Shown: positions 1,466 to 25,821 of the stretch, piece after piece
How the letters are laid out: each line of letters opens with the position of its first letter
How positions within the stretch are numbered: position 1 is the first letter of the stretch
Source of the DNA: a virus
Reading direction: 5' to 3' (one strand)
Virus record (IMG/VR): IMGVR_UViG_3300037010_001573
Location: 64,001-128,000 of that record
DNA length: 64,000 bases
Program-made: the position numbers and the translations under genes
The notes under the pieces: generated by a model
Seen by the model: only the letters and a program-made list of their open reading frames with translations
Told to the model about the DNA's origin: nothing
The model's database searches: none

Positions 1466-2205
1466 TATAATCTTAATTCTGGTAAGTAATAAACAGTGTG
1501 TCCATTTTCAGCTGTTATAAATTCTAATTTTAGTAACCCTTCAGCACTTAAATACCCCTTGGCACTGGTGTAATCTCCCTTATTAGCATTTAATATTTCT
1601 TTTATGTAAGATGAGTTAAAGGGATGTGAACTTATTTTTAAAGCTTCATAATCAGCAAGACATGTAAATTCAATTTTATTGGCATGTGATGTAGGTTCAC
1701 CCAAAACAAATTTTGCTTGTTTCCCACCATCTTCATGAGCATAACTTGATATTCTACAAATATCACGTGTGTTAGATCCTAAAGCATTTTTAGCTTTAAT
1801 GAAACGTGTTATGAACTCAACATCTATATCAAATGTGATATCATACGTTGGTTCCGAAATACTAGGGGTTGCGGGAACAATATATGGGTCTGCTAAAGAA
1901 TATTGTAAAGAGAAATTAGAATCTTCAATAAGCAATTTAGTCGGAATCTTATACTGTGATTCAACATTTAATAAAATATCTGTTTCTAATATGCTAAGCA
2001 TTTTAAGTAAACCACTAGTATTGTATATTCCTACTGTGTTGTCTCCTATCTTAATACCACAATCTAAATGTCCTACTAAGTCTTGATTAGGTGACACAAA
2101 ATCAATATGGAGTTTATCATTTGATATAATCCATTTTACGCTCTCAATAATACCACCTAAATAGTATTTTTCGATATTCGTTACTAAATCTAATTTTTTA
2201 ATCAT
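1465..2205 (-). CDS. 45: DNA polymerase sliding clamp (T4 gp45-like)
   Basis: A 246-residue protein close to the T4 gp45 length (228). Sequence landmarks of gp45 are visible: an IGIYNTSGLLKMLSIL-like stretch (here VGIYNTSG) near residue 60 and ADPYIVPATP near residue 105, matching the ADPSTVVAP region of T4. The clamp is a ring that tethers the replicative polymerase to DNA and in T4 also activates late transcription. It lies directly downstream of the polymerase genes, as expected for a replication cluster. Overall similarity is modest, so the assignment rests on these motifs plus context. Confidence 0.82.
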   Translation of the reverse strand: MIKKLDLVTNIEKYYLGGIIESVKWIISNDKLHIDFVSPNQDLVGHLDCGIKIGDNTVGIYNTSGLLKMLSILETDILLNVESQYKIPTKLLIEDSNFSLQYSLADPYIVPATPSISEPTYDITFDIDVEFITRFIKAKNALGSNTRDICRISSYAHEDGGKQAKFVLGEPTSHANKIEFTCLADYEALKISSHPFNSSYIKEILNANKGDYTSAKGYLSAEGLLKLEFITAENGHTVYYLPELRL

Positions 2206-2253: not shown

Positions 2254-3150
2254 TTATTTAAACGAAAAGAATTTATTTATTTTATTATTGAATATAGGTT
2301 TACCCCATTTTAAATCTTTATATAAACTTTCTAATTTATTAGTTAATATTGATTCAAATACTTGAGATTTATCTAAGTATTTCTCAACAAACTCAGTTAT
2401 AAAAGGAGGATCATCATAACCATTGAAACCTATTACATCTATTCGATAAGGGTTATCTTTTAAATAAGCTATAAACATTTTATCACCAATAGATAAAACA
2501 TTATGTTTTTTATCTAATTTTTTAAAACGCAACAAATCATTATAGAAAATAGCAGCTTTCGTATTAATAGGACATTTTAATCCTAAACGTGAAAATATTT
2601 CACCCGCTTTAGGAGGAGACGCAATGTAATCTTGTAAATTTTTTATTCCTGTTGGTTTTAATAATAAACGCCAATCAACAACATCAATACTATCTCTAAA
2701 TTCCAATATTTTTTTATCTATGTTCGGTTTTTTAGCACCAAACATTATATCTTGTAAAAGTTGTTTACTAAATGTTCTAAAATATGGGGGGAAATTAGAT
2801 TTCATCAAGTCTAATCCTTTAATATCTAATTCTTCTACAGGCACCCCTTCTTTATTTACAATATACATAGCATAACGTCGTTTACCAGCAAAATAACCTC
2901 GCTCTAATACTACTTCTTGTTTTAATTCAAAATAATGTGTTCGATCATGTAGATTAAATGCTTCTTGTGAAAAATTACCTATAAAGGTATTTGCTACTTC
3001 TTGTAATTCTGTTGCTATTTCTAAAACTAAAGGTATTACCTTTTCTTTATCATTTATATCTAAATCAGGATATCTATGTAATAATAAATCCTTTACATGA
3101 ATAAACAATGAATCCGTATCACTTGTTATTATTCTATCTTTATCTTCCAT
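2254..3150 (-). CDS. 43: Family B DNA polymerase, C-terminal half (motif C, thumb)
   Basis: A 298-residue protein that begins just before catalytic motif C (SDTDSLF at residues 10-16) and continues through the ELKQEVVLERGYFAGKKRYA-like region (KRRYAM near residue 90) to the thumb and C-terminus of a gp43-type polymerase. It lacks the exonuclease domain, motif A and motif B, which are in the gene at 3823-5547. An intact homing endonuclease lies between the halves. The ATG is 2 bases after the endonuclease stop. Together the halves give about 870 residues, comparable with T4 gp43 (898). I infer that the two polypeptides assemble into one enzyme, as reported for split gp43 in Aeromonas phages. 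Confidence 0.92.
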   Translation of the reverse strand: MEDKDRIITSDTDSLFIHVKDLLLHRYPDLDINDKEKVIPLVLEIATELQEVANTFIGNFSQEAFNLHDRTHYFELKQEVVLERGYFAGKRRYAMYIVNKEGVPVEELDIKGLDLMKSNFPPYFRTFSKQLLQDIMFGAKKPNIDKKILEFRDSIDVVDWRLLLKPTGIKNLQDYIASPPKAGEIFSRLGLKCPINTKAAIFYNDLLRFKKLDKKHNVLSIGDKMFIAYLKDNPYRIDVIGFNGYDDPPFITEFVEKYLDKSQVFESILTNKLESLYKDLKWGKPIFNNKINKFFSFK

Positions 3151-3152
3151 AT

Positions 3153-3782
3153 TTATTTTTTATACACCCATATAAAATTATTTGTTTTTTTCAATATTTT
3201 TCTACATACTTTAGATATGGAAGAAGCATTACTATTTGTTTGTTTTGATGCTTCTTTAATACTATGCCATTCTTTAATAAAATTTCCTTCTAAATCATAT
3301 TGAATGATAGGTTTTTGATTATTTTCGGCTGCTTTTTTATGATTTCTATTTTTAGAAACTTTACATCCCATTCCTTCAGGTTTTGGAACTCCTAATCTGC
3401 ATTGTTTCATTAATTCTCCAAACCCATATGGTTTTTTTTTACCTTTTAATGCTTTGCTTTTTCGTTGTTTTGTTATATCCGATTGTTTTTTTCCTAACAT
3501 TGGTTTTTTGTCTTTTCTCCCTTCTTTAGATTCTTCAGAATGTTTTAAAGGACCACCACCACCTTTATTTTGATTAATCAAATCAAAACCCCATTGTCTA
3601 AATTGTTCAATCCAGTAGCATTCTATCAATTTTTTATCAATAGAATTAGTTATTTCTATATCTAATATTTCAATATCTATACCATATTTTTGCCTATGTT
3701 GGTTTACTCTAGTTTTTAAATTTTTAGTATATCCTACATAAAAAGGTATTTGATTTTTCTCTAAATAATATATATAAATCAT
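3153..3782 (-). CDS. GIY-YIG homing endonuclease splitting the polymerase gene
   Basis: A complete 209-residue homing endonuclease. The GIY-YIG nuclease domain is at the N-terminus (YIYYLEK then PFYVGYTKN, residues 3-21, with the RxNQH helix following), then a basic NUMOD3-like linker rich in K and G, then a C-terminal IENR1/NUMOD1-type DNA-binding repeat (QYDLEGNFIKEWHSIKEAS to the end). It sits between the two halves of the family B polymerase gene. Flanking gaps are only 40 and 2 bases, too short for group I intron cores, so it appears to be an intronless insertion. No stop or frameshift interrupts it, so it may still be active. Confidence 0.93.
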   Translation of the reverse strand: MIYIYYLEKNQIPFYVGYTKNLKTRVNQHRQKYGIDIEILDIEITNSIDKKLIECYWIEQFRQWGFDLINQNKGGGGPLKHSEESKEGRKDKKPMLGKKQSDITKQRKSKALKGKKKPYGFGELMKQCRLGVPKPEGMGCKVSKNRNHKKAAENNQKPIIQYDLEGNFIKEWHSIKEASKQTNSNASSISKVCRKILKKTNNFIWVYKK

Positions 3783-3822
3783 ATTTTATTTTATCATAAA
3801 TATTACATTTACTATACAACGA

Positions 3823-5547
3823 TTAAGTTTTTTTATTCCCACAACCTTTAAGTGTATTTTTTATTTCATTGTTTATATAATTATTCATATTTATTATACT
3901 TTCTTGTAAAAGTCTTTGTCCTGTAAGTGTTATTGCCTTTGATATAAATTTATGCCCATCTGTATACCTCCATCCGTTTATAGCATAACAACCATAAACA
4001 TCGTTAAGTTTAATTTTGTAAGCATGTTGGCGTCTGTTATAAAAATCACCCATAATAGGATCTTTATCCACTTTAAACGCTTTTTTCATTAATACCTTAT
4101 ATTCACTCCTTTTATTAAACCAATCTGTCAATATATCACAAACAACGCTTGGTCTATCTTTTCTAAATAAAACACCCGGAGCTGAAATTGTCCAGTTTTC
4201 TTTTTCTATTAATTCCAATATTTTTCCTGCTTTAACAGTAGAACGAATAACAGATTTAGATGGTGTTAATCTTTCAATTTGTAATTCATATTCTGGATCT
4301 AGTTCTTTAAGTTCTTTAAGAGACCATTGATTATCATATTTATCTCTATTTACAATACGACCTATTAAAGTTTCAATACCTATATTCAATGAACGTATAA
4401 TAGAAGGGTATAAAGATGTAAAATCCAAGTCAATAACCCATTCATACAAACCTGGGACTGGATCTTTTAAATAACCACCTGCATATTCTTCTTTGATATC
4501 CTGTAGAGAAGGATTATAAGTGGTAGGTTTGTTAGGAGAAACAATATTATTACGTTTTAAATATGTTAATATAGCTCCTTCATTTAATACAGTAGACATG
4601 TATATTTGTTCATAAGGAACATGACATAAATGGCAAACAGTAATAGTTAAATCAATAAATTTCAGTTTTTTTTCTAATTCAACAAGAATTTCAACATCTC
4701 GAATATTATAATCGATGAATTTATCAACATCATCAACAAACAGTTTATCTAAAGAACCCAAATATTCGATTTTGCCTAAATTTACGTACTTTTCACCAAT
4801 ATCACCTAATTTGTAAGATGGTTCTTGCGCAGTAACATATTTTTTAAACAACAACATGTAATCTAAATGGTTAAGACCCGCTATTTTTGTTGTTTTAACT
4901 CCTCTAAAATCATTTTCATCGACCTTATTTAACGGTGATAAACGCACGGCCTCTGTTTTTCCGCATATTTTGGCGATTCTAGAGTAAAGATACGGTATAT
5001 CGAAGAATTCGCTGTTCCATCCTGATATTATTGTTGGGTCTATTTCATCCCACATGTCTAAGAAGCGGTTTAATAAATCCGCTTCATCTGAACATGGTAT
5101 TATATGTTTATTTCCTAATATTGAAGATTTTAATTTAGATTTTTCATCTAAAATATAACAATAATATATTTTTGTATTATTGTCATACAAAGCTATGGAT
5201 GTTATTTTTCCTTGTGGGTTTCTAACACTATCTTGTGTAAGAGCACCAGCAATTTCACATTCGATATCTAAATAAACTAAATTTTGAAAAGAAGGAACAT
5301 CATCTGAATCTGAATATGCATCTACTAATACTCTAGTGTATTTGTCTACATCACTTTCAAAAACAGCAATTTCTTTATAATCGTATGTTTTTGTAGGAGA
5401 CACACGTTTACCATCTATCGTCTTGAATTCACCAGCATCATCCAATCTATAACCGGTCGCACGATATGGGAAAGATACCCACCCTTTTTTATCGTCTTTT
5501 AAATGATACTCTTTAGTACCTCTATTGTAGTATATTGATTGATACAA
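3823..5547 (-). CDS. 43: Family B DNA polymerase, N-terminal half (exonuclease, motifs A and B)
   Basis: A 574-residue protein holding the proofreading exonuclease and most of the palm of a gp43-type polymerase. Visible motifs: Exo I LDIE (about 93-96), Exo II GWNSEFFD (176-183), Exo III YNIRD (280-284), polymerase motif A DLDFTSLYPSII (373-384) and motif B KIKLNDVYG (511-519). It stops about 50 residues after motif B, before motif C, which is carried by the next gene. The last dozen residues (LKGCGNKKT) look like readthrough into inserted DNA rather than native polymerase sequence. On its own it should be catalytically incomplete. Confidence 0.94.
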   Translation of the reverse strand: MYQSIYYNRGTKEYHLKDDKKGWVSFPYRATGYRLDDAGEFKTIDGKRVSPTKTYDYKEIAVFESDVDKYTRVLVDAYSDSDDVPSFQNLVYLDIECEIAGALTQDSVRNPQGKITSIALYDNNTKIYYCYILDEKSKLKSSILGNKHIIPCSDEADLLNRFLDMWDEIDPTIISGWNSEFFDIPYLYSRIAKICGKTEAVRLSPLNKVDENDFRGVKTTKIAGLNHLDYMLLFKKYVTAQEPSYKLGDIGEKYVNLGKIEYLGSLDKLFVDDVDKFIDYNIRDVEILVELEKKLKFIDLTITVCHLCHVPYEQIYMSTVLNEGAILTYLKRNNIVSPNKPTTYNPSLQDIKEEYAGGYLKDPVPGLYEWVIDLDFTSLYPSIIRSLNIGIETLIGRIVNRDKYDNQWSLKELKELDPEYELQIERLTPSKSVIRSTVKAGKILELIEKENWTISAPGVLFRKDRPSVVCDILTDWFNKRSEYKVLMKKAFKVDKDPIMGDFYNRRQHAYKIKLNDVYGCYAINGWRYTDGHKFISKAITLTGQRLLQESIINMNNYINNEIKNTLKGCGNKKT

Positions 5548-7013: not shown

Positions 7014-7715
7014 TTATGAATTTAATTTATAATGGGATGCTATTTCTATTGATTTAAAATATTCATCTCTAACTTCAGGTTTGTTTTTGAAAACTCCTGT
7101 TAACTCACTTGTAACCATTGCTGATCCTTTATGATTTGTTCCACGACACGATACACAATTATGTTCTCCTACTATAGAAACGGCTACACCAATATTACCT
7201 TCACACACTTTACTAACTGAGTTATGTATTGCTACTGTAAGTTGTTCTTGGATAGCTCCTCTTCGCCCAAAATGTTCTACTAGTCTATTAAGTTTGCTCA
7301 ACCCAATAACACGAGCATCTTCTCCAGGAATGTAAGCAATATGAACACGTCCTGTTATTGTTTCATGATGATGGCTACACATACTTGTTAAAGGTATATT
7401 TGTTTGTACTACCATTCCTTTAAAACCATCACTAGGGAATGAAGATATTGTAGGGGGAGCATCATACCTTCCTTTCCATTGTTCTAAAACATATTTCTTA
7501 GCAATACGTCTTGGAGTATCAGCACTATTTGGATCATTTTTCCAATCACAACCTAAAGCAGTTAAAAAATTACCATAAGCTTCAGCAGCAGCATCGATCA
7601 TTACTTCTTTATCTTCCTTGCTTAAAGGAAAACCAGGAGCAACCCCATTAGCTAACCCAACAGGAACTACTTCAAGATCATTGTAATTTTTTCGTCTATT
7701 GTCTTCTACGTTCAT
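7014..7715 (-). CDS. folE: GTP cyclohydrolase I
   Basis: A 233-residue FolE. Zinc and active-site motifs are intact: SMCSHHHE (residues 111-118; C113, H115, H116), the GLSKL and RLVEHFGRR segments (138-152), and the EHNCVSCRG loop (184-192). FolE converts GTP to dihydroneopterin triphosphate, the first step of both folate and 7-deazaguanine (preQ0) synthesis. With QueD, QueE, QueC and a DpdA-like protein nearby, the deazaguanine route is the likely purpose. The first 30 residues are a non-conserved extension. Confidence 0.96.
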   Translation of the reverse strand: MNVEDNRRKNYNDLEVVPVGLANGVAPGFPLSKEDKEVMIDAAAEAYGNFLTALGCDWKNDPNSADTPRRIAKKYVLEQWKGRYDAPPTISSFPSDGFKGMVVQTNIPLTSMCSHHHETITGRVHIAYIPGEDARVIGLSKLNRLVEHFGRRGAIQEQLTVAIHNSVSKVCEGNIGVAVSIVGEHNCVSCRGTNHKGSAMVTSELTGVFKNKPEVRDEYFKSIEIASHYKLNS

Positions 7716-7899
7716 AAATTATTGTTTTTTCTTTATTTGAAAATTTATATCCTCTAAATGTAATAAAATCTAATTCAATTTCCAAAAAATTTGCAATTTT
7801 TCTTACATCATCTATGGTAATTAAAGCATTACACCATTGCCACCATATTGAATTTAATATATCATTTATTGATATACCTGTTATTTTTAAATCTATCAT
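7696..7899 (-). CDS. 67-residue protein of unknown function
   Basis: A small gene overlapping the folE start by 20 bases, with its stop inside the folE leader. The sequence (ISINDILNSIWWQWCNALITIDDVRKIANFLEI) looks like a compact helical domain and is not low complexity. No family is recognised. It is in the queE-folE gap and so would be co-transcribed with the deazaguanine genes. Confidence 0.5.
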   Translation of the reverse strand: MIDLKITGISINDILNSIWWQWCNALITIDDVRKIANFLEIELDFITFRGYKFSNKEKTIIYERRRQ

Positions 7900-7920
7900 G
7901 CTTTTTATTCTTGAATATTA

Positions 7921-8709
7921 TCACACACATCTCTCACTCTCAAAGGCAATAATGTGGGGCCTCCAAGTTAATCTATACCCATTATCACGCACCCAATTAA
8001 ATAATCTTGGATATGATTGAAATAAAGCTTCCCTTGTATCCCCACTAGGCATAAACCATACTTTATCTTGTGGTATATCTAACATTCTAATACAACCTAA
8101 TATTTCTTCTAATGTTTGTTGATCTTCACCACTCCATACTGGTTTTAGATGGTAATCAGAATGATACGCAATTGATTTAGACATAGCTTCATAATTTAAT
8201 CTAAATTTATTATGTTGTTTTATCATTTTTTCATCAACAATATATCCTTGCGGTGTTGATACTCCTATTTTTGGATTAGAATTACTAAACTTAGGACTAA
8301 TGCTAAGTAAATTAATAGGCCAATCAGTTTCAAGAAAATGACTCCCTTCCGTTTCCATAGTAATAAAAATTCCTCTTTCATGTGCAAAATGTGTTAGTTC
8401 GTTTACTAATTTAGGCCACATAGTGGGACTCCCTCCTGTAAGCATCATCTCAGTAATGTGAGGGTTATCATCATACATTTTAATGATGTCTTGAAAAGAA
8501 TATTGAGCTTTTTCTGGGTGGATTGATGTATACCAACTATCACACCACCCTCCATCACCAAAAAAACAACGATGAGTGCATCCAGTAGTTCTTATTATCA
8601 CTGTAGGATAACCTGCTCTGCTTCCTTCTGATTGTACGGCCGTATATAATTCAATAATTGCTGACTTTTTATCTTTTTCAACTTCAGTCATTCTTGTTAT
8701 TTGTCCCAT
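7921..8709 (-). CDS. queE: 7-carboxy-7-deazaguanine synthase (radical SAM)
   Basis: A 262-residue radical SAM enzyme of the QueE family, which ring-contracts 6-carboxytetrahydropterin to 7-carboxy-7-deazaguanine. N-terminal features are typical (YTAVQSEGS near residue 22, GYPTVIIRTTGC). The cluster cysteines are C44, C48 and C56, a CX3CX7C spacing that includes a short insertion (FFGDGGW) instead of the common CX3CX2C; QueE is known to vary here. TGGSPTMWP (91-99) is the glycine-rich SAM motif. It opens a transcription unit just below a terminator hairpin. Confidence 0.92.
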   Translation of the reverse strand: MGQITRMTEVEKDKKSAIIELYTAVQSEGSRAGYPTVIIRTTGCTHRCFFGDGGWCDSWYTSIHPEKAQYSFQDIIKMYDDNPHITEMMLTGGSPTMWPKLVNELTHFAHERGIFITMETEGSHFLETDWPINLLSISPKFSNSNPKIGVSTPQGYIVDEKMIKQHNKFRLNYEAMSKSIAYHSDYHLKPVWSGEDQQTLEEILGCIRMLDIPQDKVWFMPSGDTREALFQSYPRLFNWVRDNGYRLTWRPHIIAFESERCV

Positions 8710-8764
8710 CTTATTCTAAGTGTTGGCTTAATAATTTATTTATATTTTTGTGAAGATACAAAAA

Positions 8765-8783
8765 GGTTGGCGAGAAGCCAACC
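8765..8783 (-). terminator. Intrinsic terminator below the lysis cassette
   Basis: A perfect 7-bp stem (GGTTGGC/GCCAACC) with a 5-base loop. On the minus strand it is followed by TTTTT, and it lies between the stop of the gene at 8806 and the start of queE. A run of T on the other side would also let it work on the plus strand, though no plus-strand gene is present. Confidence 0.85.
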
Positions 8784-8805
8784 TATTTTTAATATTTTTT
8801 TAAAA

Positions 8806-9444
8806 TTATTTATGTAAACTTATTTTCCAATACATTCCTCCTTGAATAGATACGTTTTTATCAGTTCCATAACCAGCTGCTAGAAAAAATATACGATCTT
8901 GTTTTGTTTTATATAATACTGAAGGTCCAACAAAATTAATAATATTTGTTTTATCAAATCCAGAAATACCACCAATATATATTTGGTCTTTAGGTAATTC
9001 TTTTACGATTTTAGTATCATAAATTGTTTTCTGGATGATAGTCGCTTTATAATTTCTACCTTTAATTTGATTTTGAGTAATTGTGTCTGTTATATTAATT
9101 ATCCCCAAATGATTATCCAAAGTTAAAGTATCTTTATAAACATATGTACTATAAAAATCTTCTACTATTTTTAATGTATCCAAATTTTTAGGTGGTTTAC
9201 CAGGTTGTGGTAATGAACGCCATATTGTCTTGCCAGGTTTATATACGGTTGTTATTTTAGGTATATAAATTGTATCAACAGTGTGTTTTACAACTTCATA
9301 TTTCTTTCCATCAATTTTTACAACATTCTTAGATGTTTGGCTATTACAACTATCTGTTATATTAGAAAAAAATAAAAATATCATTAAACCTAGTATAAGT
9401 AAGGTTTTAAGATCTAATTTTTTAAATAATGATTTGTCTTCCAT
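8806..9444 (-). CDS. Membrane-anchored envelope protein, possible spanin-like lysis protein
   Basis: A 212-residue protein with one N-terminal membrane segment (about residues 13-31, LKTLLILGLMIFLFF) immediately followed by a cysteine (SCNSQ), then a long predicted extracytoplasmic part rich in beta-forming TVDTIYIPKITTVY-type segments and a C-terminal GGMYWKIS strand. It ends the lysis cassette after the holin and the GH19 endolysin. Position and topology suggest a spanin-type or envelope-disrupting role, but no spanin family match is visible to me. It resembles small DUF6808-like proteins of Bacteroidota phages. Confidence 0.6.
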   Translation of the reverse strand: MEDKSLFKKLDLKTLLILGLMIFLFFSNITDSCNSQTSKNVVKIDGKKYEVVKHTVDTIYIPKITTVYKPGKTIWRSLPQPGKPPKNLDTLKIVEDFYSTYVYKDTLTLDNHLGIINITDTITQNQIKGRNYKATIIQKTIYDTKIVKELPKDQIYIGGISGFDKTNIINFVGPSVLYKTKQDRIFFLAAGYGTDKNVSIQGGMYWKISLHK

Positions 9445-9445
9445 T

Positions 9446-9901
9446 TTATTCTTTTTCTAATTCTTTAATATGTTCTGATATTTGTTCCTCAATAACATCT
9501 TTATGTTTGTCTATTTTATCTAGGTATTTTGTTACTAAGTTGTTTGGGATTAAATCTACTTTAGATGCGTTTTTTAAAATAGAAATAATTTGAAATATTA
9601 AAAAAGGAGGTAATATAGTCGAACTTAACCAATCAACCCCATGGAATCCTTTTTGAATAGAAAGAACTATTGAAAGTAATATTACCCAAAACACAAATGT
9701 TTTTATAACTTTAATAGCTTTATACGTCTTAAAACCTTCTCGTTTTATACCGGCCCACATACCAAAAAAACCATCAGCAAATATAACCAAGGTTATTGCT
9801 AAATATTGATACACATTATCTATAACAAGATGATTAAAATATGATATTACGAATGAGAATAAAGTTGTCAATGATAATGTTATTATAGTTGTTGTTTTCA
9901 T
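9446..9901 (-). CDS. Holin-like protein (phage holin family 4 type)
   Basis: A 151-residue membrane protein with three to four hydrophobic segments (about residues 5-22, 29-50, 66-84, 92-110) and a charged C-terminal helix ending in KELEKE. The second segment contains DGFFGMWAGIKREGFKTYK, which matches the core pattern of the Phage_holin_4_1 family. It is directly downstream of the endolysin gene, with 5 bases between them. It would permeabilise the inner membrane at lysis. Confidence 0.78.
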   Translation of the reverse strand: MKTTTIITLSLTTLFSFVISYFNHLVIDNVYQYLAITLVIFADGFFGMWAGIKREGFKTYKAIKVIKTFVFWVILLSIVLSIQKGFHGVDWLSSTILPPFLIFQIISILKNASKVDLIPNNLVTKYLDKIDKHKDVIEEQISEHIKELEKE

Positions 9902-9906
9902 ATAAC

Positions 9907-10518
9907 CTATTTAACGTATTCGTAATATTTTTTAGTTTTTAATTTTCTATCATCCAAACCAAGTATACCTCCGTTAATTCTTTTTGTAAGAGCTGTAATT
10001 GATTTGTCATCTACACCTTGATCACATATTGACCATAAATTGTTATTCTCAAAGAAAAACAATGCAGATTCAAAAGCATATTGTGTTGCTACCAGATCAG
10101 GATTAGCCATTATTTCTGGGATTGATAAGTATTTTGCCAACATCATATAATTTTCTCTACCCGTTGTTTGAATTGCTCCTCTTCCTTTAAACCTCCATCC
10201 ATCACCCGAAGCTTCGTTCCCATTACCCATTCTATTACAATAGACATGGTTGGCTATCTTTTCTGGTTGTCTAGTATATATTTCTGATATATTTCCAGGA
10301 AAATATTTTGGAAATGTTTCTTTTAACCCTTGTGCATTGTAATTTAAATTTTCAATGAAAATAGTAAAACCACCGGTTTCATGTGATATTTGTCCGAAAA
10401 AATGAGCAGCTCTAAATGGTGTTAATTTAAAGTAACTCATCGCTTTATTCATTGTTGTTGGACCAAAAATACCATCTGGTATTAATCCCAACTTTTCTTG
10501 TAAATTTTTTAAACTCAT
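9907..10518 (-). CDS. GH19-type endolysin with N-terminal wall-binding segment
   Basis: A 203-residue muralytic enzyme. Residues 1-30 resemble a short peptidoglycan-binding helix pair (LQEKLGLIPDGIFGPTT). The rest is glycoside hydrolase family 19: SHETGGF (45-51) carries the likely general acid E47, with E56 nine residues on; WRFKGRGAIQTTGRENY follows near residue 108. These enzymes hydrolyse the glycan strand of peptidoglycan. There is no signal peptide, so release depends on the adjacent holin. Confidence 0.92.
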   Translation of the reverse strand: MSLKNLQEKLGLIPDGIFGPTTMNKAMSYFKLTPFRAAHFFGQISHETGGFTIFIENLNYNAQGLKETFPKYFPGNISEIYTRQPEKIANHVYCNRMGNGNEASGDGWRFKGRGAIQTTGRENYMMLAKYLSIPEIMANPDLVATQYAFESALFFFENNNLWSICDQGVDDKSITALTKRINGGILGLDDRKLKTKKYYEYVK

Positions 10519-10521
10519 GTA

Positions 10522-10779
10522 TTAATCTGGAATGTTTGGTGTATTTGATGATGGTTTTCTAAATGAAGCAAATTTTTCTATTACATCAGGTAAGAAACTA
10601 CCTAAAGTAATATACATAAAAGCATCAAATATATATTCATTTAATTTTAATTCTTTTCCCATAAAATTAGCAACAATATCAGCTGTAAACCCCAATACCA
10701 TTACTATAAAAGCCATGAACCCAATTATAACTTTTTCATTATAATCGTTTGATTTTTTAAAAATATCTGTAAAAGCCAT
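10522..10779 (-). CDS. Small two-pass membrane protein, second holin candidate
   Basis: An 85-residue protein with two hydrophobic segments (about 18-38, VIIGFMAFIVMVLGFTADIV, and 50-68) separated by a short polar loop, and a Pro/Ser/Asn-rich tail. It is first in the lysis cassette, 3 bases before the endolysin gene. Size and topology fit a holin, antiholin or accessory membrane protein; no family is recognised. Confidence 0.65.
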   Translation of the reverse strand: MAFTDIFKKSNDYNEKVIIGFMAFIVMVLGFTADIVANFMGKELKLNEYIFDAFMYITLGSFLPDVIEKFASFRKPSSNTPNIPD

Positions 10780-10847
10780 AATATATTATAGTTTTAAATT
10801 AATACACATCAGTAATACAAAACAATTAAAAAACAATAACATGTTTA

Positions 10848-10857
10848 TTATAAATAT
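10848..10857 (-). promoter_or_regulatory. ATATTTATAA element upstream of the lysis cassette
   Basis: One copy of the recurring minus-strand element ATATTTATAA, here continuing as TAAAC. It lies just below a terminator hairpin and about 70 bases before the first lysis gene, which is where a promoter is expected. Identity as a late promoter is inferred from recurrence and from partial resemblance to the T4 late -10 box TATAAATA. Confidence 0.45.
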
Positions 10858-10863
10858 AAAAAA

Positions 10864-10881
10864 GCTCAGTAATAACTGAGC
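10864..10881 (-). terminator. Intrinsic terminator
   Basis: A perfect 7-bp stem (GCTCAGT/ACTGAGC) with a 4-base AATA loop, followed on the minus strand by six T. It separates the gene ending at 10904 from the lysis cassette. Confidence 0.88.
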
Positions 10882-10903
10882 TCTCTTTTAAAATATTGTA
10901 TTA

Positions 10904-11080
10904 TTATAACATCTTTCTTATCTTCTGTCCTAAATCAGAATCATTGGGTGTTTGTTTAATGATTTCACGAGAAACTAAAATATAATCATCCATGTTACGA
11001 ATAACATAAAGGGGAGTTATTATTTCTTTTTTAATATCATTTTCTTTTTCAATTAAATCGTCTATAAGATGATGTCCCAT
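10904..11080 (-). CDS. 58-residue protein of unknown function
   Basis: I choose the ATG at 11078-11080 because it starts 1 base after the stop of the preceding gene; a longer in-frame start at 11152 would overlap that gene by 71 bases. The product (MGHHLIDDLIEKEND to QKIRKML) is mostly helical and charged. No family recognised. Confidence 0.6.
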   Translation of the reverse strand: MGHHLIDDLIEKENDIKKEIITPLYVIRNMDDYILVSREIIKQTPNDSDLGQKIRKML

Positions 11081-11081
11081 T

Positions 11082-11414
11082 TTATATAGTTTCGTATGTT
11101 TTTTTAAAAATATCTGGTCTGCATGGGTAAAATTCTCCTTGTACTCCTTCAATAATAAAATATCCTATACTAGCAACCATTACTCCTTCTAAAGTATGTA
11201 CATCTAAATAATTTGTTTCAATTGGAGTATTTCCTTCATAAGCAATATGTTTATTTACTTTTCCATTACTAAATATGTAAATATCATTGGTATTACTTCC
11301 ATTCCATTGAATCGCTTTTATTTTTACTGGTTTCTTACGATATATTTTCCAAGGATGGTTATTTCCTAGGAAGTTTTTATCATAATAATTTTGATCTAAA
11401 TTATCTAATCCCAT
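11082..11414 (-). CDS. Conserved phage protein of unknown function
   Basis: A 110-residue protein with the pattern YRKKPVKIKAIQW near residue 25 and GYFIIEGVQGEFYPCRPDIF near residue 85. This pair of motifs is common in small phage proteins of unknown function. A compact beta-rich fold is likely. It is tightly packed between two small genes. Confidence 0.7.
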   Translation of the reverse strand: MGLDNLDQNYYDKNFLGNNHPWKIYRKKPVKIKAIQWNGSNTNDIYIFSNGKVNKHIAYEGNTPIETNYLDVHTLEGVMVASIGYFIIEGVQGEFYPCRPDIFKKTYETI

Positions 11415-11415
11415 A

Positions 11416-11826
11416 TTAAAATGTAATTGTAGTTATCTCCTTAATTACTATAGTCTCAGGATCAAAATCTTTATCCAATTGTTTAGCTACTGTTAATTCT
11501 AAAGATACTCCTTTTTTAATTTCTACCCATAGTTCTTTTACAAATTTAGAAGAAATTACTTCATTCTTATCATTTCTTTCTACAGTAAAGACTGCTACTT
11601 TTACTTGTTTATCCATATTGTTTGAATGTGTTATTGTTTGTTGTAATAAATAATTTGCTGTATTCCCGAATGCTTTTAAATCTGTTAAATAAGTTTCCCC
11701 ACTTGATGGAAGGTTTATTATATTAGTATTCTCAATATATGGTGTTGTGCTCCAATTATTTGGATCATATACATTCACCCCAATTGTTCTATTAGTTGTA
11801 TTGTTTGTATTTGTTTGATTGAACAT
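11416..11826 (-). CDS. 136-residue protein of unknown function
   Basis: The N-terminal third is rich in Asn and Thr (a TNTNNTTNRT stretch); the middle is helical (ANYLLQQTITH) and the C-terminal half beta-like (VKVAVFTVERN, TIVIKEITTITF). It lies 4 bases below queC in the same transcription unit. No family is recognised; it could be a small virion or regulatory protein. Confidence 0.6.
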   Translation of the reverse strand: MFNQTNTNNTTNRTIGVNVYDPNNWSTTPYIENTNIINLPSSGETYLTDLKAFGNTANYLLQQTITHSNNMDKQVKVAVFTVERNDKNEVISSKFVKELWVEIKKGVSLELTVAKQLDKDFDPETIVIKEITTITF

Positions 11827-11830
11827 AGTC

Positions 11831-12718
11831 CTAATTGTTGTATTCTTTTAATACTTTTTGAACTGCATCTCTTGCAGTCTCCCATGTTACGGGTCCTGTT
11901 TCGTCTGCATAAGCAACGGGATCTTTTCTTCCTAATTTAATAAATGCTTCGATACGTTCTATTGAAGATGCTGACTTATAGTCTGAGAACCAAGTGTAAG
12001 TCTCTACCCAACCTCCTTCGTCTTTATACCCATCAGTAATACAAATTGGCTTATAAGATGTATTAGTTCTTGAATAAACTTCATCAAAATCTAATTCTAA
12101 CTCTTCACATAATACTTCTCCATCTTTTAAGATATCGAATTTATTACCTTCAAGATAGGGAGTAAAATATCCTACTTTTTCGGCTCCCCAATTTCCTAAA
12201 CGGAAAGCATTATCATCAGCATCTCTAAATTCAACTCTACAATCCGGGTAAATCGAAAAATCCCCAGCATGGATTCCTAATGCAATATCACACTGCTCTC
12301 CTGTACGATTTGCAATTGATAATGCTACGGCTTGAGAAATAGAAGCAAACATCTTGTTTCTGTTAGGAACAACTGTTTCTTTCATATTATCTTGCTCGTA
12401 ATGACCTTCTGGTACATCTTTACCTCCTGTTACTAAAGCTGAATCTAATAGATCAACTAATCCATCTAGTTTGATTTGACGGTAATTTACAGGAATATAC
12501 TTACCAAAATCTTCTCCTCTGTGATTAGTTTCGTAAAAGTTACTGTTAACGTAATCTACTAATGATTGAGCTCTCTCTAGCTCTACTCTGTGTTTTTGAC
12601 CATAGTCAAAACTTATGGCCGTAACAGTTGAGTATTCTTTTAAACAACGTAACAATAAGGTGCTGCTATCCATTCCACCTGAAAGTGAAACCACTACATG
12701 TTTTTTTAAATTTTGCAT
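11831..12718 (-). CDS. queC: 7-cyano-7-deazaguanine (preQ0) synthase
   Basis: A 295-residue QueC. The ATP-pyrophosphatase PP-loop SLSGGMDSST is at residues 11-20, followed by DYGQKHRVELERA (38-50). QueC converts 7-carboxy-7-deazaguanine to preQ0 using ATP and ammonia. The C-terminal zinc-binding cysteine cluster of bacterial QueC is not visible; the matching region (TSYKPIC then WFSDYKSASS) keeps one Cys. The first 14 residues repeat, with synonymous codons, the peptide of a stranded 5' fragment at 13239-13283, with an endonuclease remnant between them, so this gene is the restored full-length copy. Confidence 0.93.
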   Translation of the reverse strand: MQNLKKHVVVSLSGGMDSSTLLLRCLKEYSTVTAISFDYGQKHRVELERAQSLVDYVNSNFYETNHRGEDFGKYIPVNYRQIKLDGLVDLLDSALVTGGKDVPEGHYEQDNMKETVVPNRNKMFASISQAVALSIANRTGEQCDIALGIHAGDFSIYPDCRVEFRDADDNAFRLGNWGAEKVGYFTPYLEGNKFDILKDGEVLCEELELDFDEVYSRTNTSYKPICITDGYKDEGGWVETYTWFSDYKSASSIERIEAFIKLGRKDPVAYADETGPVTWETARDAVQKVLKEYNN

Positions 12719-19232: not shown

Positions 19233-20594
19233 TTATTCCGAACTAGATATGAAACTTCTTAAAAAATCTTTTTCACCTTTATCTAAAGCATTGTAATCTT
19301 GAGGTCTATTTTGATTAACTGAAGTGTCTATCTCTAATAAGTCACTAAATATTTCTATTTTACCCATAGATGTGTCTATTTGTGAACCATATGTCATACC
19401 ATCACCACCAAGTCTGTTCTTCATAACGTGCCAACGTCCTGTTCCTTCCAATTTATCCTTTCTATTTCGGGCCAACGATAATACTATATCCCCAATCATT
19501 AATTTAGAATATGAACCAGCTATGTTATCACCTTCGATAATATCACTTTTTGCTCCACTTCTATTAGCTTGAGACGGTGTTACTATAGGTAATTTTAATT
19601 CTCTTGCTAACCCCCTAACACTAGTGTATATATCTTCTGTACCTTCTAGTCTATCACGAGAATTATTTTTCATTAAATCAATATAATCTATGAATATAAC
19701 ATCAGGAACGAAATTATCTTGCATCCTTAAGGATTCAATATGTTGTTCAACTTGATCTAATGTGGTTTTACCTGAGGGGAATTCTTTAATTAGAATATTA
19801 CCAGGTAATTTTTCTACTTCACGTTCAATATCTTTTCTATGTTTTGTCATTTGATCTACAGGAACTCCTAATAGATTAGCATCCATACGACGAGCAACAT
19901 ACGCTTCACTTAACTCTAATGTATAAAACAATACATTAAATCCTAATTTAGCAGCATGTACAGCCATCGCTATAGCACCCCATGATTTACCCCCTCCAGG
20001 ATTACCAAATAATATTACTAATTCTCCTTTTCCATAACCACCTTGTGTTATATCATTAAATACATCCCAAGGAAAAGGTATAGGATTTCTATCATCTTCT
20101 CTATAACGAGTTTCGACATCTTTAGAATATTCATGTCCTATAGATCTAATTTCACCTATTTTAAGAGCATTTAATATTAACTGACGAATAGAATCAAAAT
20201 CATTAATACCTAACAAATCTGTAGAAGCAATAATCGCTTTTTTCATTTGTTGGTTTTTACAAAAACCTAGGAATTCATCTTTAATATACTGAATGTCTGT
20301 TTGTTCTGAATCTCTATAAGCTTGTGTTAATTGTTCCTTAATAGCTATTTTTAAAACATCATTTTCAATCTTTTGTATTTCTACTTTAAGAGCTTCCATT
20401 GAAGGAACAGTATGATATTTATGGAAATATTTAAGAATTTCCTTAATTACCCACTGATGTGATGTGTTTTCAAAATATTCTTCAGTTAATGAATCTGATA
20501 TTGTTATTAAGAAATCTCTATCAGTTAATAAAGCCCCTATTACTTTTATTTGGAAAGTATTACCATATTGCGAAAGCCGTGATAAGGTTGTCAA
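19233..20594 (-). CDS. 41: Replicative DNA helicase (DnaB/T4 gp41-like)
   Basis: A 453-residue DnaB-family helicase. An N-terminal helical domain (about 1-130) precedes a RecA-like ATPase with Walker A GNPGGGKS (197-204), Walker B VIFIDYIDLM (about 302) and a PSQANRSG sensor motif. It unwinds DNA ahead of the split polymerase. It lies between RNase H and nrdB in the replication block. Confidence 0.93.
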   Translation of the reverse strand: MTTLSRLSQYGNTFQIKVIGALLTDRDFLITISDSLTEEYFENTSHQWVIKEILKYFHKYHTVPSMEALKVEIQKIENDVLKIAIKEQLTQAYRDSEQTDIQYIKDEFLGFCKNQQMKKAIIASTDLLGINDFDSIRQLILNALKIGEIRSIGHEYSKDVETRYREDDRNPIPFPWDVFNDITQGGYGKGELVILFGNPGGGKSWGAIAMAVHAAKLGFNVLFYTLELSEAYVARRMDANLLGVPVDQMTKHRKDIEREVEKLPGNILIKEFPSGKTTLDQVEQHIESLRMQDNFVPDVIFIDYIDLMKNNSRDRLEGTEDIYTSVRGLARELKLPIVTPSQANRSGAKSDIIEGDNIAGSYSKLMIGDIVLSLARNRKDKLEGTGRWHVMKNRLGGDGMTYGSQIDTSMGKIEIFSDLLEIDTSVNQNRPQDYNALDKGEKDFLRSFISSSE

Positions 20595-20637: not shown

Positions 20638-21666
20638 TTATTTTAGAAGGAGAGATCCAAAGTTTTCTACCAACCAATTTTGGGTATTTTGGATAGAATT
20701 TTGTAAACCATCAGTATCATACAATACCATGAATTTACCTACATTTAAAGGTGTTATTTCTTCACATAACAGATTTAAGATAACCTCTTTATCATACTCT
20801 GATATATTAGGTTTACGAATATTCATCAATTGGTAATTAATATTCAGTTGTTGTTTACCTGCTAGTATTTTTTTATAGGATGGGTTTGTTTTTATATTTT
20901 CTTCACTTATATTCATTATATCAACAAATGAATGTTCTTTTTCTGAATTTAGAGGGAATAATTTTATAATTTTTTTATGCCCCACACCAAATATACCAGG
21001 AAGATTATCAGAATTATCACCCAACAAAGTCTTATATATTAAAAAATTATTAGGGTGAACATTGAATTCGTCTAAAACATCTTGTATTTTAAATACTTTC
21101 TTTTTAGTAGGAGAATATATTTGAACTTTATCACTGATTAATTGGTAGAAATCTTTATCAGACGATAATATTGTTACTTTACTACAATCTTCATTGTTTT
21201 CATAATAATCAGCAATAAAACCAATACTATCGTCTGCCTCTATTTTATCTATTGATATTAAAGAAACTGGAAGTTGTTTTAGATAATGAACCAAACGTGT
21301 CATTTGGTTAACCATAGCTTCACTTTCTTCTTCTTTATCATCAAAAGTATCCCAATTAGTCACACGAGAAGTATTTCTATTTCCTTTATAATCAGGGTAT
21401 AAATTTTTCTTATTATGTGAACTTCCAACACCGTCAAAAACAAGAATTATACGTGTTGGGCGAAACATTCGGACAGCAGAACCTAAACTTCTTAAATATC
21501 CAACAAGACCACCTATATGGTGGCCTGTCGGATTTATTAAATTTACAGAAGCAAAATTTCTTATAAACGTATTCATAGAATCTACTACCAATACTCTACT
21601 ATCCTTAGTAGATTTATCGTTTTCTAAGGATGCTAATACTTGATTTAAAAATTTTTTATCAAACAT
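20638..21666 (-). CDS. rnh: 5'-3' exonuclease / RNase H (T4 Rnh-like FEN fold)
   Basis: A 342-residue PIN/FEN-fold nuclease. Acidic metal ligands occur in LVVDSMN (about 26-32), IILVFDG (about 73-79), IEADDSIG (143-150), LSSDKDFYQL (about 167-176) and GDNSDNLPG (about 216-224), followed by the GVGHKKIIK helix-hairpin-helix. T4 Rnh removes RNA primers from Okazaki fragments. One-base overlap with uvsX upstream shows an operon. Confidence 0.9.
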   Translation of the reverse strand: MFDKKFLNQVLASLENDKSTKDSRVLVVDSMNTFIRNFASVNLINPTGHHIGGLVGYLRSLGSAVRMFRPTRIILVFDGVGSSHNKKNLYPDYKGNRNTSRVTNWDTFDDKEEESEAMVNQMTRLVHYLKQLPVSLISIDKIEADDSIGFIADYYENNEDCSKVTILSSDKDFYQLISDKVQIYSPTKKKVFKIQDVLDEFNVHPNNFLIYKTLLGDNSDNLPGIFGVGHKKIIKLFPLNSEKEHSFVDIMNISEENIKTNPSYKKILAGKQQLNINYQLMNIRKPNISEYDKEVILNLLCEEITPLNVGKFMVLYDTDGLQNSIQNTQNWLVENFGSLLLK

Positions 21667-22763
21667 TATTCATCTGCTATTTCAATAATAGGAGAAATAT
21701 TTTTACTTTCTTCCCATTCAGAGTTATCTTCAACTATTTGTAAAGTATCAATATCTACAGTTTCTTCAAACCACTCATTTGCATATTGTTTTTTGTATAC
21801 TTTCACAGCATCTGGATCATCAGGTATGAATCCATGTGGTGTAACAATAACAGTTGATGTTGTAGCTATACCACAGTCAGCATGTATTTTATCAATTGCT
21901 ATTTTAGTACGTTTAGCAAATTCAACTTTTTTACCTTTATGCTGCACATTAATTTTAGATGTACCACTATTGGTGACATTACCAAATGTAATAACAATAG
22001 CAGCATCCCAATACATTGCATTTCCCCCTTTATTTGTCATTCTTGGTTGAGACATAGGTGTTAATGCAGGTTGAACACCTGTTTTATTAATAACAAAGAA
22101 AGTATTAGTATATGGGTATTTTTCTTTACGTGAAAGTGGAAACTGTTGGTTAATAAAATTACCAAACTGGGTTGCCATAGCTCCGGCATTCCACATTGGG
22201 TTATTGTTACCTTGTTTAACACTCATTTCGCATGGTATTGAACCTACTGAATCCCATAAAAATAACAAATCATAAGGTAATTTACCTTTTTTCTGTTCAT
22301 TTAGAATATCAGCAATAAAAGATGATACATCTTCTATAGTATTCAACGAAGATCTATCGACATAAAGGAAAAATCCTTTATAATCTACAACCTCACCAGT
22401 TTCATCATCTGCCATAGCTTCTACTTCAAATCCCATTTTTTTAGCATGAGCGAAATCCCATTTCATCTCAGTAATAATGAATATAGGTAAAACTTCATTT
22501 TGTTGAGCAGCAATAGCAGCTTCAATCAATAATGTTGTTTTTCCTGTATCGGAACCCCCACGAGCAATTGTTACTTGCCCCATAGGGATTCCAGGAATAG
22601 AAAGAGCATCTTGTACAGCCGGTGAAAATGGTATCCATCTTTGTTTTTTAAATTTAGAAGATTCTGTTAAATTTTTAGATTTTTTAAAATTTTCTAAACT
22701 AAAACCCTTATCAGATGATTTAATGGCAGATGATACTGCCCCACTTACACTAGGTCTTCCCAT
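21666..22763 (-). CDS. uvsX: Recombinase UvsX (RecA family)
   Basis: A 365-residue RecA-type strand-exchange ATPase. Walker A GGSDTGKTT is at 69-77, Walker B LLFLWDSVGS near 165, and the NKTGVQPALTP loop near 228 is typical of UvsX. It drives recombination-dependent replication and repair together with the gp32-type SSB encoded 2 bases upstream. Length is close to T4 UvsX (391). Confidence 0.93.
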   Translation of the reverse strand: MGRPSVSGAVSSAIKSSDKGFSLENFKKSKNLTESSKFKKQRWIPFSPAVQDALSIPGIPMGQVTIARGGSDTGKTTLLIEAAIAAQQNEVLPIFIITEMKWDFAHAKKMGFEVEAMADDETGEVVDYKGFFLYVDRSSLNTIEDVSSFIADILNEQKKGKLPYDLLFLWDSVGSIPCEMSVKQGNNNPMWNAGAMATQFGNFINQQFPLSRKEKYPYTNTFFVINKTGVQPALTPMSQPRMTNKGGNAMYWDAAIVITFGNVTNSGTSKINVQHKGKKVEFAKRTKIAIDKIHADCGIATTSTVIVTPHGFIPDDPDAVKVYKKQYANEWFEETVDIDTLQIVEDNSEWEESKNISPIIEIADE

Positions 22764-22765
22764 AA

Positions 22766-23617
22766 TTATTCTTCAAATAAAGCATCAAATTTATCCGCTT
22801 TTGCTTTTTTTACAGGAGCAGCCGATTGTACACCAACATTTGAATTAGCTTTATCATCCCAAGGCATATCATCAAACTTACTATCATCCTTAGTGCTAGA
22901 TTCTGTATCATCTTCATCTTTTGTCACGATTGATTCATTGTCATCTTCATCTTCAGGATTAGCCCATTTTTGAAAGATTTCATTCAAGCTTTCGTAAGTG
23001 TGTTTTTTGTTGATAGACATGATATCTGGTTGATCCTCCAAATACGATGTTAATAAAGTAGCATCCTCTGTTATAGCTGATGTTTTAACTCTAGGAGTTA
23101 ATGTGCATTTTACTACTTTTTTTCCTAGCATTTCACTGTCAATACCTTCAACAACAAAATCACGTCCTTCACTTACATCGGTGAAGTCTCCATAATCTTC
23201 ATTCATTGCGATATTCATCAATTGCGTGTAAATTTCTTTACCAAATTCCCACAAACGCACTCCATTTCCTTCTTCACCACGAACAACAACTGGTGCAAAA
23301 ACTCTCATTTTAGGAGTAATCTTTTTAGCCATAGCCCAATGATCAGGATTGTCAGATTTGCGTAGTTTTTGTGCTGCCTCTACAATAGGGTCAGCTTCAC
23401 CCCAGTTAGATAATGCTAAAATAGGTGCTTTAGTGTAACCATAGTGAAAATAAATCTCACGAAACGGGTTTGACTTGTTAAATTTAGACGGAATTATACG
23501 AACTTGGTGTTTACCCGCTTTCGGTTTCCAAAAAATTTTACTGTAGTCAATTTTTTCTTTTGATTGTCCCTTGTTTTGGAACGAATCTAATTTTGATTTG
23601 ATCAAAGATAAATCCAT
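22766..23617 (-). CDS. 32: Single-stranded DNA-binding protein (T4 gp32-like)
   Basis: A 283-residue gp32-type SSB. It has a basic N-terminus, a core with FWKPKAGKHQVRIIP (29-43) and REIYFHYGYTKAP (53-65), and a long acidic tail (DEDDNESIVTKDEDD, DDMPWDD) ending in FDALFEE, the part that in gp32 recruits replication partners. The zinc-ribbon Cys/His set of T4 gp32 is not apparent. It heads the UvsX-Rnh-helicase operon. Confidence 0.9.
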   Translation of the reverse strand: MDLSLIKSKLDSFQNKGQSKEKIDYSKIFWKPKAGKHQVRIIPSKFNKSNPFREIYFHYGYTKAPILALSNWGEADPIVEAAQKLRKSDNPDHWAMAKKITPKMRVFAPVVVRGEEGNGVRLWEFGKEIYTQLMNIAMNEDYGDFTDVSEGRDFVVEGIDSEMLGKKVVKCTLTPRVKTSAITEDATLLTSYLEDQPDIMSINKKHTYESLNEIFQKWANPEDEDDNESIVTKDEDDTESSTKDDSKFDDMPWDDKANSNVGVQSAAPVKKAKADKFDALFEE

Positions 23618-23668: not shown

Positions 23669-24075
23669 CTAGAAAGCCAAATTATATTTGGCAGATTTTA
23701 AAATATCTTCAGGCGAAGAATCCCATTTAATATCTATACATTTAATATTTGATGTGCCTTTATAATCTGAGATCCTAACAGGGATACCATTAAGTTTAAA
23801 ATAGATGGATTGGGTACTTATTGATGGATTGTAATCAGTTATTATACCTTTATTTTGTAACCACTTAAATATTTTTTCTATTTTATAATAAGTTAAATGA
23901 TTTTTAAAACTATTTAAAGTAAAAGAACCTTTATTCTTTTTATAATTTATAAAAAACCTAGGTTTACTTAAAGAATCATAATGAGTAGAAATATTTCTTA
24001 CGGATAAATTAGGAAAATATTTTTTCCTTCATTATACACATTTAAAACATCATTATCTACTTCTCCATGTACCAT
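23669..24075 (-). pseudogene. Frameshifted or frameshift-decoded gene of unknown function
   Basis: Starts with an ATG overlapping the upstream stop (TAATG at 24073-24077). The first frame codes MVHGEVDNDVLNVYNEGK and soon stops. A shift of -1 at the A6 run (24020-24025) opens about 115 further codons, beginning YFPNLSVRNISTHYD and ending KSAKYNLAF with TAG at 23669-23671. The shift site reads GGA AAA AAT, i.e. an A AAA AAT slippery heptamer in the correct phase, so programmed frameshifting is possible; simple loss of one A is equally possible. Combined product about 135 residues, no recognised family. Confidence 0.6.
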
Positions 24076-24530
24076 TACAATTCAATAATATTAAAAATTT
24101 TTGTATGAACTTTTCTAAGTCCACCATCTTGGGTAAGTAATATAACGTTTCGGTGGTCTGACCAGTTTACTTTATAATCAGTATTTAACATCCCACCATT
24201 TAATTCTTTAATCAATGCATTAAGGGCATTGATTGTATATAAAGTATTTGACTCTTTTTTTCTATGTACTAAAATAGTACCAGGAAGTGCATTTTTTGAG
24301 TTAGTATTTATAACATCAAGGTTATACGTAAGAATATATTCGTTTGTATCTGGAGAAGACAAAACAAAGATTTTATTATATAAAATTGAATATTTATTTA
24401 CTAATATATTTATAGTATTATCTAATTTATCTGAATCGATAAAAGTGCAAAAAAGTTTATTTCCTACCATTTCATTTATAACAATGTTGTCGAATTTATA
24501 GCTAGTCATAAATATTGGTTGTTGTATCAT
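24075..24530 (-). CDS. 151-residue protein of unknown function
   Basis: Alternating beta and helical segments (NKIFVLSSPDTNEYILTY, IYSINALNALIKEL-like) and a C-terminal WSDHRNVILLTQDGG. No family recognised. It lies 10 bases below the family A-like polymerase and overlaps the next gene start, so it probably belongs to the replication block. Confidence 0.6.
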   Translation of the reverse strand: MIQQPIFMTSYKFDNIVINEMVGNKLFCTFIDSDKLDNTINILVNKYSILYNKIFVLSSPDTNEYILTYNLDVINTNSKNALPGTILVHRKKESNTLYTINALNALIKELNGGMLNTDYKVNWSDHRNVILLTQDGGLRKVHTKIFNIIEL

Positions 24531-24540
24531 AACCTTATTT

Positions 24541-25821
24541 TTATTTTATTATATTATAATTAGTTCCTGATTTGATTTTTGTAGGGTATTTTAATTTTTT
24601 CATAATATTTTTTATTTGTGGTATTTCATCATCAATGGCATCAATTAATATAGAATCATATGTGTATAAAATAATTCTTGATTTTAGATCTATGAATTCT
24701 TCAAATAAGTTATCCATTTGTTCAATATTTTGTGATGTTTCAAAATTTTGCACAATATAATTTAATACTTTTTGTGGGTTCGGTTTTTCTATATCTTTCA
24801 AATGAAATATTTTACCAGAAGGAGCAACAATATAACCCTTTTTAGTTATATCCATCCATATTTCATTAGTTAATTCATTTATTTCTTTAAAAAACGGTTT
24901 ATTTCGTAAATTGTAACTTATACCACCATATAAATTCTGAAATGTTATTGTTTTTACATTATTTATGTCATTTTCTTCCAGAATAAGGGCTATTTGTTCA
25001 TAAACATTTGTGTGAAAATCAAATTCATAACCAACTAATGTTCCTAATAAACGAGGATGATAACCATTAAAATCAAATTCTAAAAACGAACTATTTTCAG
25101 GCACGAAACATGCTCGCTCTCCATTCTCCTTACCTAAAGCCGCGTAATTTATGTTGTTAAATGCATTAGACGGACGCCCAGTTAAAGTATATAAATTGTA
25201 GTTTGTATATGCTCGTCCTTTTTTAATAGAAAATTGTAATGTTTGGTGATTTTTATAAAAATTTAAAAAACACTGTTTATCCAGTTTAATTCCTTTTTTT
25301 TCTATATTAAAGAAAAAATTAATTTTTTTATTTGTAAAATCTGTATTCTTTCTTATATAAGGTTGTATACCATTGTATAAGTTTTCACAATATTCGTAAT
25401 GTTTGGATATAGGAACTAAATGGTTTACATTATATAATGAACCAAAACGTCTATAAAAATCAGACAATATAGTAGGTTCATATTTTTCTGTTTCCAACAG
25501 AATACCTTCCTTATCTATATATTGAAAATTTATATCATTTATATCTTTATTTAAAAAATAACGAGTATATTTAGCATTTAATGCATATATTTCTTTTCCT
25601 AATAAGAATTCTTTAAGAGAACCCCAATCTAAACTAAGAGATTCATTGTGTTTAATACAAAACATATACCCCTTATCGTTAAACGGCTTAACATATATCA
25701 AAGATATTTCAGATATAGCAGGGTGGTAGTTGTTATTATTGGATATTATATGAACAAAACACTCATTAAATTGAGGTATTGAAGATAACTGTGAGTTTTT
25801 TTCTATTATATAAAATGACAT
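24541..25821 (-). CDS. Family A DNA polymerase-like protein
   Basis: A 426-residue protein with the palm/fingers signature of PolA: TLTGRPSNAFNNINYAAL (212-229), motif A FLEFDFNGYHPRLLGTL (246-262) with D250, a short finger helix KTITFQNLYGG (290-300) and motif C LYTYDSILID (385-394) with D389 where E. coli has HDE. Both catalytic carboxylates are kept. The N-terminal 200 residues do not show clear exonuclease motifs. It is short for a polymerase (typically 550-900 residues). Having this next to a T4-type family B polymerase is unusual. A polymerase active in repair or primer processing is possible. Confidence 0.75.
   Translation of the reverse strand: MSFYIIEKNSQLSSIPQFNECFVHIISNNNNYHPAISEISLIYVKPFNDKGYMFCIKHNESLSLDWGSLKEFLLGKEIYALNAKYTRYFLNKDINDINFQYIDKEGILLETEKYEPTILSDFYRRFGSLYNVNHLVPISKHYEYCENLYNGIQPYIRKNTDFTNKKINFFFNIEKKGIKLDKQCFLNFYKNHQTLQFSIKKGRAYTNYNLYTLTGRPSNAFNNINYAALGKENGERACFVPENSSFLEFDFNGYHPRLLGTLVGYEFDFHTNVYEQIALILEENDINNVKTITFQNLYGGISYNLRNKPFFKEINELTNEIWMDITKKGYIVAPSGKIFHLKDIEKPNPQKVLNYIVQNFETSQNIEQMDNLFEEFIDLKSRIILYTYDSILIDAIDDEIPQIKNIMKKLKYPTKIKSGTNYNIIK

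Follow-up and report, generated by a model that had tools for sequence, protein, structure and literature searches.

A divergent family A DNA polymerase, named divPolA1, was described from 14 phages by Yutin et al. (2024, Virol J 21:200; PMC11348598). Its thumb is truncated, its exonuclease is inactivated and its gene lies in a conserved replication neighbourhood. The same phages also encode a regular polymerase, which belongs to family A, B or C and has a less replication-like neighbourhood (PMC11348598). The authors favour that divPolA1 is 'involved in replication' without choosing a specific role, and the function of the 'regular' polymerase is called 'less obvious', so that the identity of the main replicase in these phages is itself unproven. 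DNA polymerase activity is not reported for any divPolA1 member in this publication, and a full-text literature search for 'divPolA1' returned only the article and its preprint.

The divPolA2 proteins of barbaviruses (PMC11348598) are likewise second, exonuclease-less family A enzymes found beside a family B polymerase (PolB), but in the published description their N-terminal globular domain is unrelated and their gene neighbourhood varies. The TV-Pols (Iyer et al., 2008; PMC2579912) share with divPolA1 that they are small family A-related polymerases without an active exonuclease. In TV-Pols, however, the RxxxK motif of the fingers and a coiled-coil thumb are retained and nuclease neighbours are absent, whereas divPolA1 lacks the Arg, contains an exonuclease-like domain and is encoded close to a 5′-3′ exonuclease (flap endonuclease, FEN) gene.

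The window analyzed here, a stretch of 64,000 nucleotides, covers positions 64,001 to 128,000 of a 161,676-bp IMG/VR virus record. It belongs to a large tailed phage, the host of which is probably a member of the Bacteroidetes. The compact family A-like polymerase of 426 aa that had been predicted from the sequence was confirmed, the ORF being located exactly at 24541-25821 on the minus strand. By tblastn, the protein matches gene 1 of Flavobacterium phage immuto, a founding member of divPolA1, with 30.7% identity over 98% of its length (E = 2e-45), and both genes lie in an operon of the same kind. As a full-length syntenic ortholog, the window protein is a new member of the published divPolA1 family, with which it has the intact palm, the truncated thumb, the apparently dead exonuclease and the presence of a second, regular polymerase in common. 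It differs from the immuto protein in that it is found in another phage, where a GIY-YIG endonuclease splits PolB. The co-occurrence of two polymerases, highlighted in the original prediction, is real but less unusual than was assumed, since the family had already been published.

The family is far larger than the 14 published genomes. Among 50,697 phage records, full-length relatives were found by tblastn only in immuto (four records, 31% identity) and in the Microcystis phage Mel-JY01 (27%), to which the 484-kb uncultured phage LR756508 is added, as its ORF, when translated, likewise aligns from end to end. In a profile scan of IMG/VR, at least 586 relatives were confirmed, which amounts to more than 580 loci in this resource. 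Eight of the divPolA1 loci stem from assemblies of bacterial or archaeal genomes, including several Flavobacteriia MAGs.

The detection of divPolA1 by standard domain models is poor. The Pfam model DNA_pol_A matches residues 198-409 of the ORF with E = 4.6e-5 and 23 bits, which is below the gathering cutoff of 34.3, and a scan of the phage's own genome with PF00476 at E<=0.001 missed the gene; the absence of a Pfam match is thus no proof of absence in relatives. The PHROGs database gave a better match (phrog_17, DNA polymerase, 7e-13). When the protein alone was searched against PDB sequences, no match was obtained, whereas the family profile recovers Klenow.

An AlphaFold2 model built on 67 sequences, all from IMG/VR, reached a mean pLDDT of 94.4 and a pTM of 0.91. 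In this model a polymerase palm is present, and residues 2-425 align to Bacillus Pol I with a Z score of 26.8 (396 residues, rmsd 3.5). The predicted fold is that of a complete but shrunken Klenow fragment with a full Pol I-type palm. The large fragment of bacterial Pol I (Klenow/Bst) thus has the same fold and the same palm catalytic residues; it comprises about 600 aa, compared to 426 aa in divPolA1. Residues 1 to about 160 of divPolA1 form a vestigial 3′-5′ exonuclease-like domain, residues of about 161-213 the truncated thumb, and residues of about 214-426 the palm and fingers. The thumb is largely missing: the spacing from E174 to R216 is 23-43 aa across 109 sequences, and most of the Pol I thumb was left unmatched by hhalign. 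Because the model aligns from residue 2 onwards on the exonuclease-like domain of Pol I, the N-terminus of divPolA1 has an exonuclease-like fold. This domain seems to be devoid of catalytic acids, as no conserved DEDD acids are found by hand inspection at positions 24, 26 and 86, although the domain could not be matched to E. coli Pol I by profile alignment; the result agrees with PMC11348598. The earlier statement that exonuclease motifs are lacking therefore holds for working motifs, but not for the domain as such. Purifying selection on divPolA1 is strong (dN/dS about 0.01-0.16 in close pairs).

For the active site, 109 family members, many of them close relatives, were aligned, and T214, R216, N225, D250, H255, K290, F294, Y298, Q358, E361, Y388 and D389 were invariant in 109 of 109 sequences. 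According to the concordant hmmsearch profile and hhalign alignments to E. coli Pol I, D250 corresponds to D705, H255 to E710, K290 to K758, F294 to F762, Y298 to Y766, Q358 to Q849 and D389 to D882, and in the profile alignment R216 falls on R668. The predicted palm aspartates D250 and D389 and the TGR motif were hence verified. The patterns of the large IMG/VR scan contained motif A or motif C, by which the conservation of D250, H255, Y388 and D389 is partly conditioned; K290, F294, Y298, R216 and Q358 lie outside the main search patterns and their conservation is unconditioned.

Three Pol I residues are replaced in divPolA1. Motif C reads YDS in the window protein, as had been noted before, and across the family 80 YDS and 29 YDA motifs were counted (n = 109), which means that the equivalent of Glu883 is lost to Ser or Ala. 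The fingers Arg754 is replaced by I286 in the window protein, and Y, I and Q predominate at this site in the 109 sequences, with no conserved Arg. Finally, Glu710, the ribonucleotide-excluding residue of Pol I (PMC13228545), is replaced by His (H255) in all 109 sequences. The same His was found in three divergent lineages from the phage collection that were recovered without motif patterns, and Glu is kept at this ribose steric gate in the classical comparison set (E. coli, T7, the full-size PolA of immuto, CRP-3 and MT837764). Both features of the classical family A test, the Glu steric gate and the RxxxK fingers, are consequently absent from divPolA1, and its Pfam score is below the cutoff. 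With the loss of Arg754, Glu883 and Glu710 taken together, activity on ordinary dNTPs is not to be assumed. The His gate, the loss of the fingers Arg and the retention of K758, F762, Y766 and Q849 are absent from the text of PMC11348598 and are added here.

The PolA of Roseobacter phage CRP-3 (705 aa) resembles divPolA1 in motif B (...KSVTFSPLYGG) and in motif C (HDS), but it is full-length and keeps the Glu steric gate and the Arg of RxxxK. This protein (L215:732-2849) may connect classical PolA with divPolA1.

Downstream of divPolA1 in the window, all on the minus strand, follow orf151 (24075-24530, 151 aa, unnamed, with an HRKKxxNxLYTINALN core), a gp32-like single-stranded DNA-binding protein (22766-23617; Pfam gp32 3e-11, phrog_1192), a UvsX/RecA-like recombinase (21666-22763; Pfam and PHROGs), a FEN encoded as a separate gene (20638-21666; Pfam 5_3_exonuc_N 4e-30, phrog_107) and a DnaB-like replicative helicase (19233-20594; Pfam and PHROGs). 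This is the order observed in immuto, and divPolA1-orf151-gp32-UvsX-FEN-DnaB was found in nearly all loci with room downstream, often with ribonucleotide reductase next. In most relatives hardly any spacer separates orf151 from gp32, but in the window an open frame of 119 codons, which lacks a usual start codon, lies between them (23669-24028, minus strand). This frame looks coding, is possibly disrupted near its start and has no homolog in the loci compared.

The constant neighbour of divPolA1 is orf151, which was found in exactly the same six of the 50,697 phage records as full-length divPolA1. As a separate test of this linkage, orf151 instead of divPolA1 was used as query, and the best 80 loci of a longer list were taken, some on contigs already known. 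In the 77 IMG/VR loci newly fetched by this search, divPolA1 is located upstream of orf151 in all 76 that have room for it. No trustworthy sequence match to orf151 was obtained in PHROG, NCBIfam, PADLOC or PDB, and among viral proteins the one clear match is itself an unnamed protein of a phage. The orf151 model has a pLDDT of 85; the best PDB match by Foldseek has E = 0.26, and the best structural match, the origin-binding domain of the SV40 T-antigen (VIA Z 5.8), is below the trust level and serves as a lead only. This linkage makes orf151 a strong candidate for acting together with divPolA1. The gene is absent from the text of PMC11348598, so that this fixed partner is a further addition to the published family.

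The likeliest reading, held with somewhat less than even confidence, is that divPolA1 is an active accessory polymerase without proofreading, which belongs to the gp32-UvsX-FEN-DnaB operon and serves to fill gaps or to extend intermediates of recombination. The enzyme would derive from the Klenow module of Pol I and would be template-directed, its thumb being reduced and its exonuclease domain apparently dead, whereas the split PolB would act with the clamp as replicase. Encoded in one operon with the single-stranded DNA-binding protein, the recombinase, the flap endonuclease and the helicase, divPolA1 together with the separate FEN could re-create in two proteins the 5′ nuclease and polymerase of cellular Pol I. 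It would perform short, distributive synthesis at gaps after primer removal and/or at the ends of UvsX strand invasions. In this, orf151 probably acts with divPolA1, perhaps by supplying the DNA contact of the missing thumb. Membership in the operon fits several replication roles, so that gap filling and recombination-linked synthesis are not separable by it. A primase role as a necessity was rejected: DnaG primase is encoded elsewhere in 4 of 4 genomes tested, and divPolA1 therefore need not prime.

The regular polymerase of the window is a gp43-like PolB encoded on the minus strand, with the sliding clamp gene (gp45-like, 1465-2205, minus strand; phrog_223 6e-8) adjoining PolB and not divPolA1. 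A separate replicative polymerase, PolB or PolA and either full-size or split, was detected in every scanned record of at least 120 kb, and the records of 59-111 kb in which no replicase was found may be fragments. PolC was found in none of the six relatives examined. In immuto and one further relative (G016), PolB is missing and a full-size PolA of about 780 aa is present, and the small enzyme is still kept. This widespread group of large phages has thus retained a second, altered polymerase through swaps of the main one. Alternatively, divPolA1 might itself be the main or a co-essential replicase, e.g., for the lagging strand, with PolB or PolA being secondary. Such a role would agree with the invariance of divPolA1 and its position in a conserved replication operon, as opposed to a regular polymerase that varies between families A and B here, extends to family C and has the less replication-like neighbourhood in PMC11348598. 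It is nevertheless judged unlikely, because divPolA1 seems to lack proofreading, has a truncated thumb and has no known processivity device of its own, while the gp45-like clamp adjoins PolB; a 160-kb genome copied by divPolA1 alone would be error-prone.

The accessory role is compatible with an altered choice of sugar or base, by which divPolA1 would use rNTPs or deaza-nucleotides and make RNA patches, RNA or modified DNA. The invariant exchange of the Pol I rNTP gate for His (PMC13228545) and the loss of Arg754 point in this direction. Furthermore, 7-deazaguanine genes (GTP cyclohydrolase I, QueE-like, QueC) are located at 7014-12718 on the minus strand, as in immuto, which adds DpdA, and on account of these pathway genes the phage DNA is probably modified. 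The copying of modified DNA suggested in the original prediction is hence possible in view of the genes in both phages, which give it no specific support. Against an altered choice, however, it must be considered that His is bulky and can still exclude the 2′-OH, that Phe is kept at the position of F762 as in DNA-type Pol I, that a DnaG primase is present, and that DpdA normally inserts deazaguanine into DNA after synthesis, and the proposal is therefore viewed as doubtful.

About as doubtful is a more specific arrangement, in which divPolA1 and orf151 would constitute a dedicated two-protein polymerase. Here orf151, the fold of which weakly resembles that of a polyomavirus origin-binding domain, would replace the thumb or deliver the enzyme to DNA, and the invariant His gate would confer an unusual sugar or base choice. 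If the two proteins do work as a pair, they would represent a compact, thumb-reduced polymerase with possibly altered substrate choice, which would be of interest for enzymology. Because the His gate is invariant and the unnamed partner constant, the function can be tested directly, either in vitro or in the cultured pair of immuto and Flavobacterium sp. LMO8.

A loss of the chemistry, which would leave divPolA1 as a structural or regulatory pseudo-polymerase, is considered quite improbable. The lost equivalents of Arg754, Glu710 and Glu883, the truncated thumb and the apparently dead exonuclease would be in line with it, but both metal-binding aspartates and the equivalents of K758, F762, Y766, R668 and Q849 are invariant.

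The split of PolB in the window, noted in the original prediction, is real and spans 2254-5547. The N-terminal part (3823-5547, minus strand, 574 aa) contains motifs A and B and the C-terminal part (2254-3150, minus strand, 298 aa) motif C (DTDS), so that the break, as read from the sequences, falls between motifs B and C, and a GIY-YIG/NUMOD homing endonuclease gene (3153-3782, minus strand) separates them. Among nine IMG/VR relatives with PolB, the gene is in one piece in seven (860-880 aa) and split like that of the window in two (G006 and G012); intact PolB was also found in Mel-JY01 (855 aa) and in G017. The small enzyme is thus retained whichever main polymerase accompanies it, and its presence is not explained by the split. 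The proposed linkage of the two was rejected, and the independence of divPolA1 from the split adds to the published description, as do the His gate, the partner gene and the much wider spread. That divPolA1 stands in for a PolB disabled by the homing endonuclease, as originally proposed, is very improbable and refuted as a general explanation, for although both occur together in the window, G006 and G012, most relatives have an intact PolB, immuto and G016 have a full-size PolA instead, and the split gp43 halves of phage 25 co-purify as an active polymerase (PMC2988022), by which no backup is needed. In the 484-kb phage LR756508, PolB matches were found in two frames and the gene is possibly split there as well.
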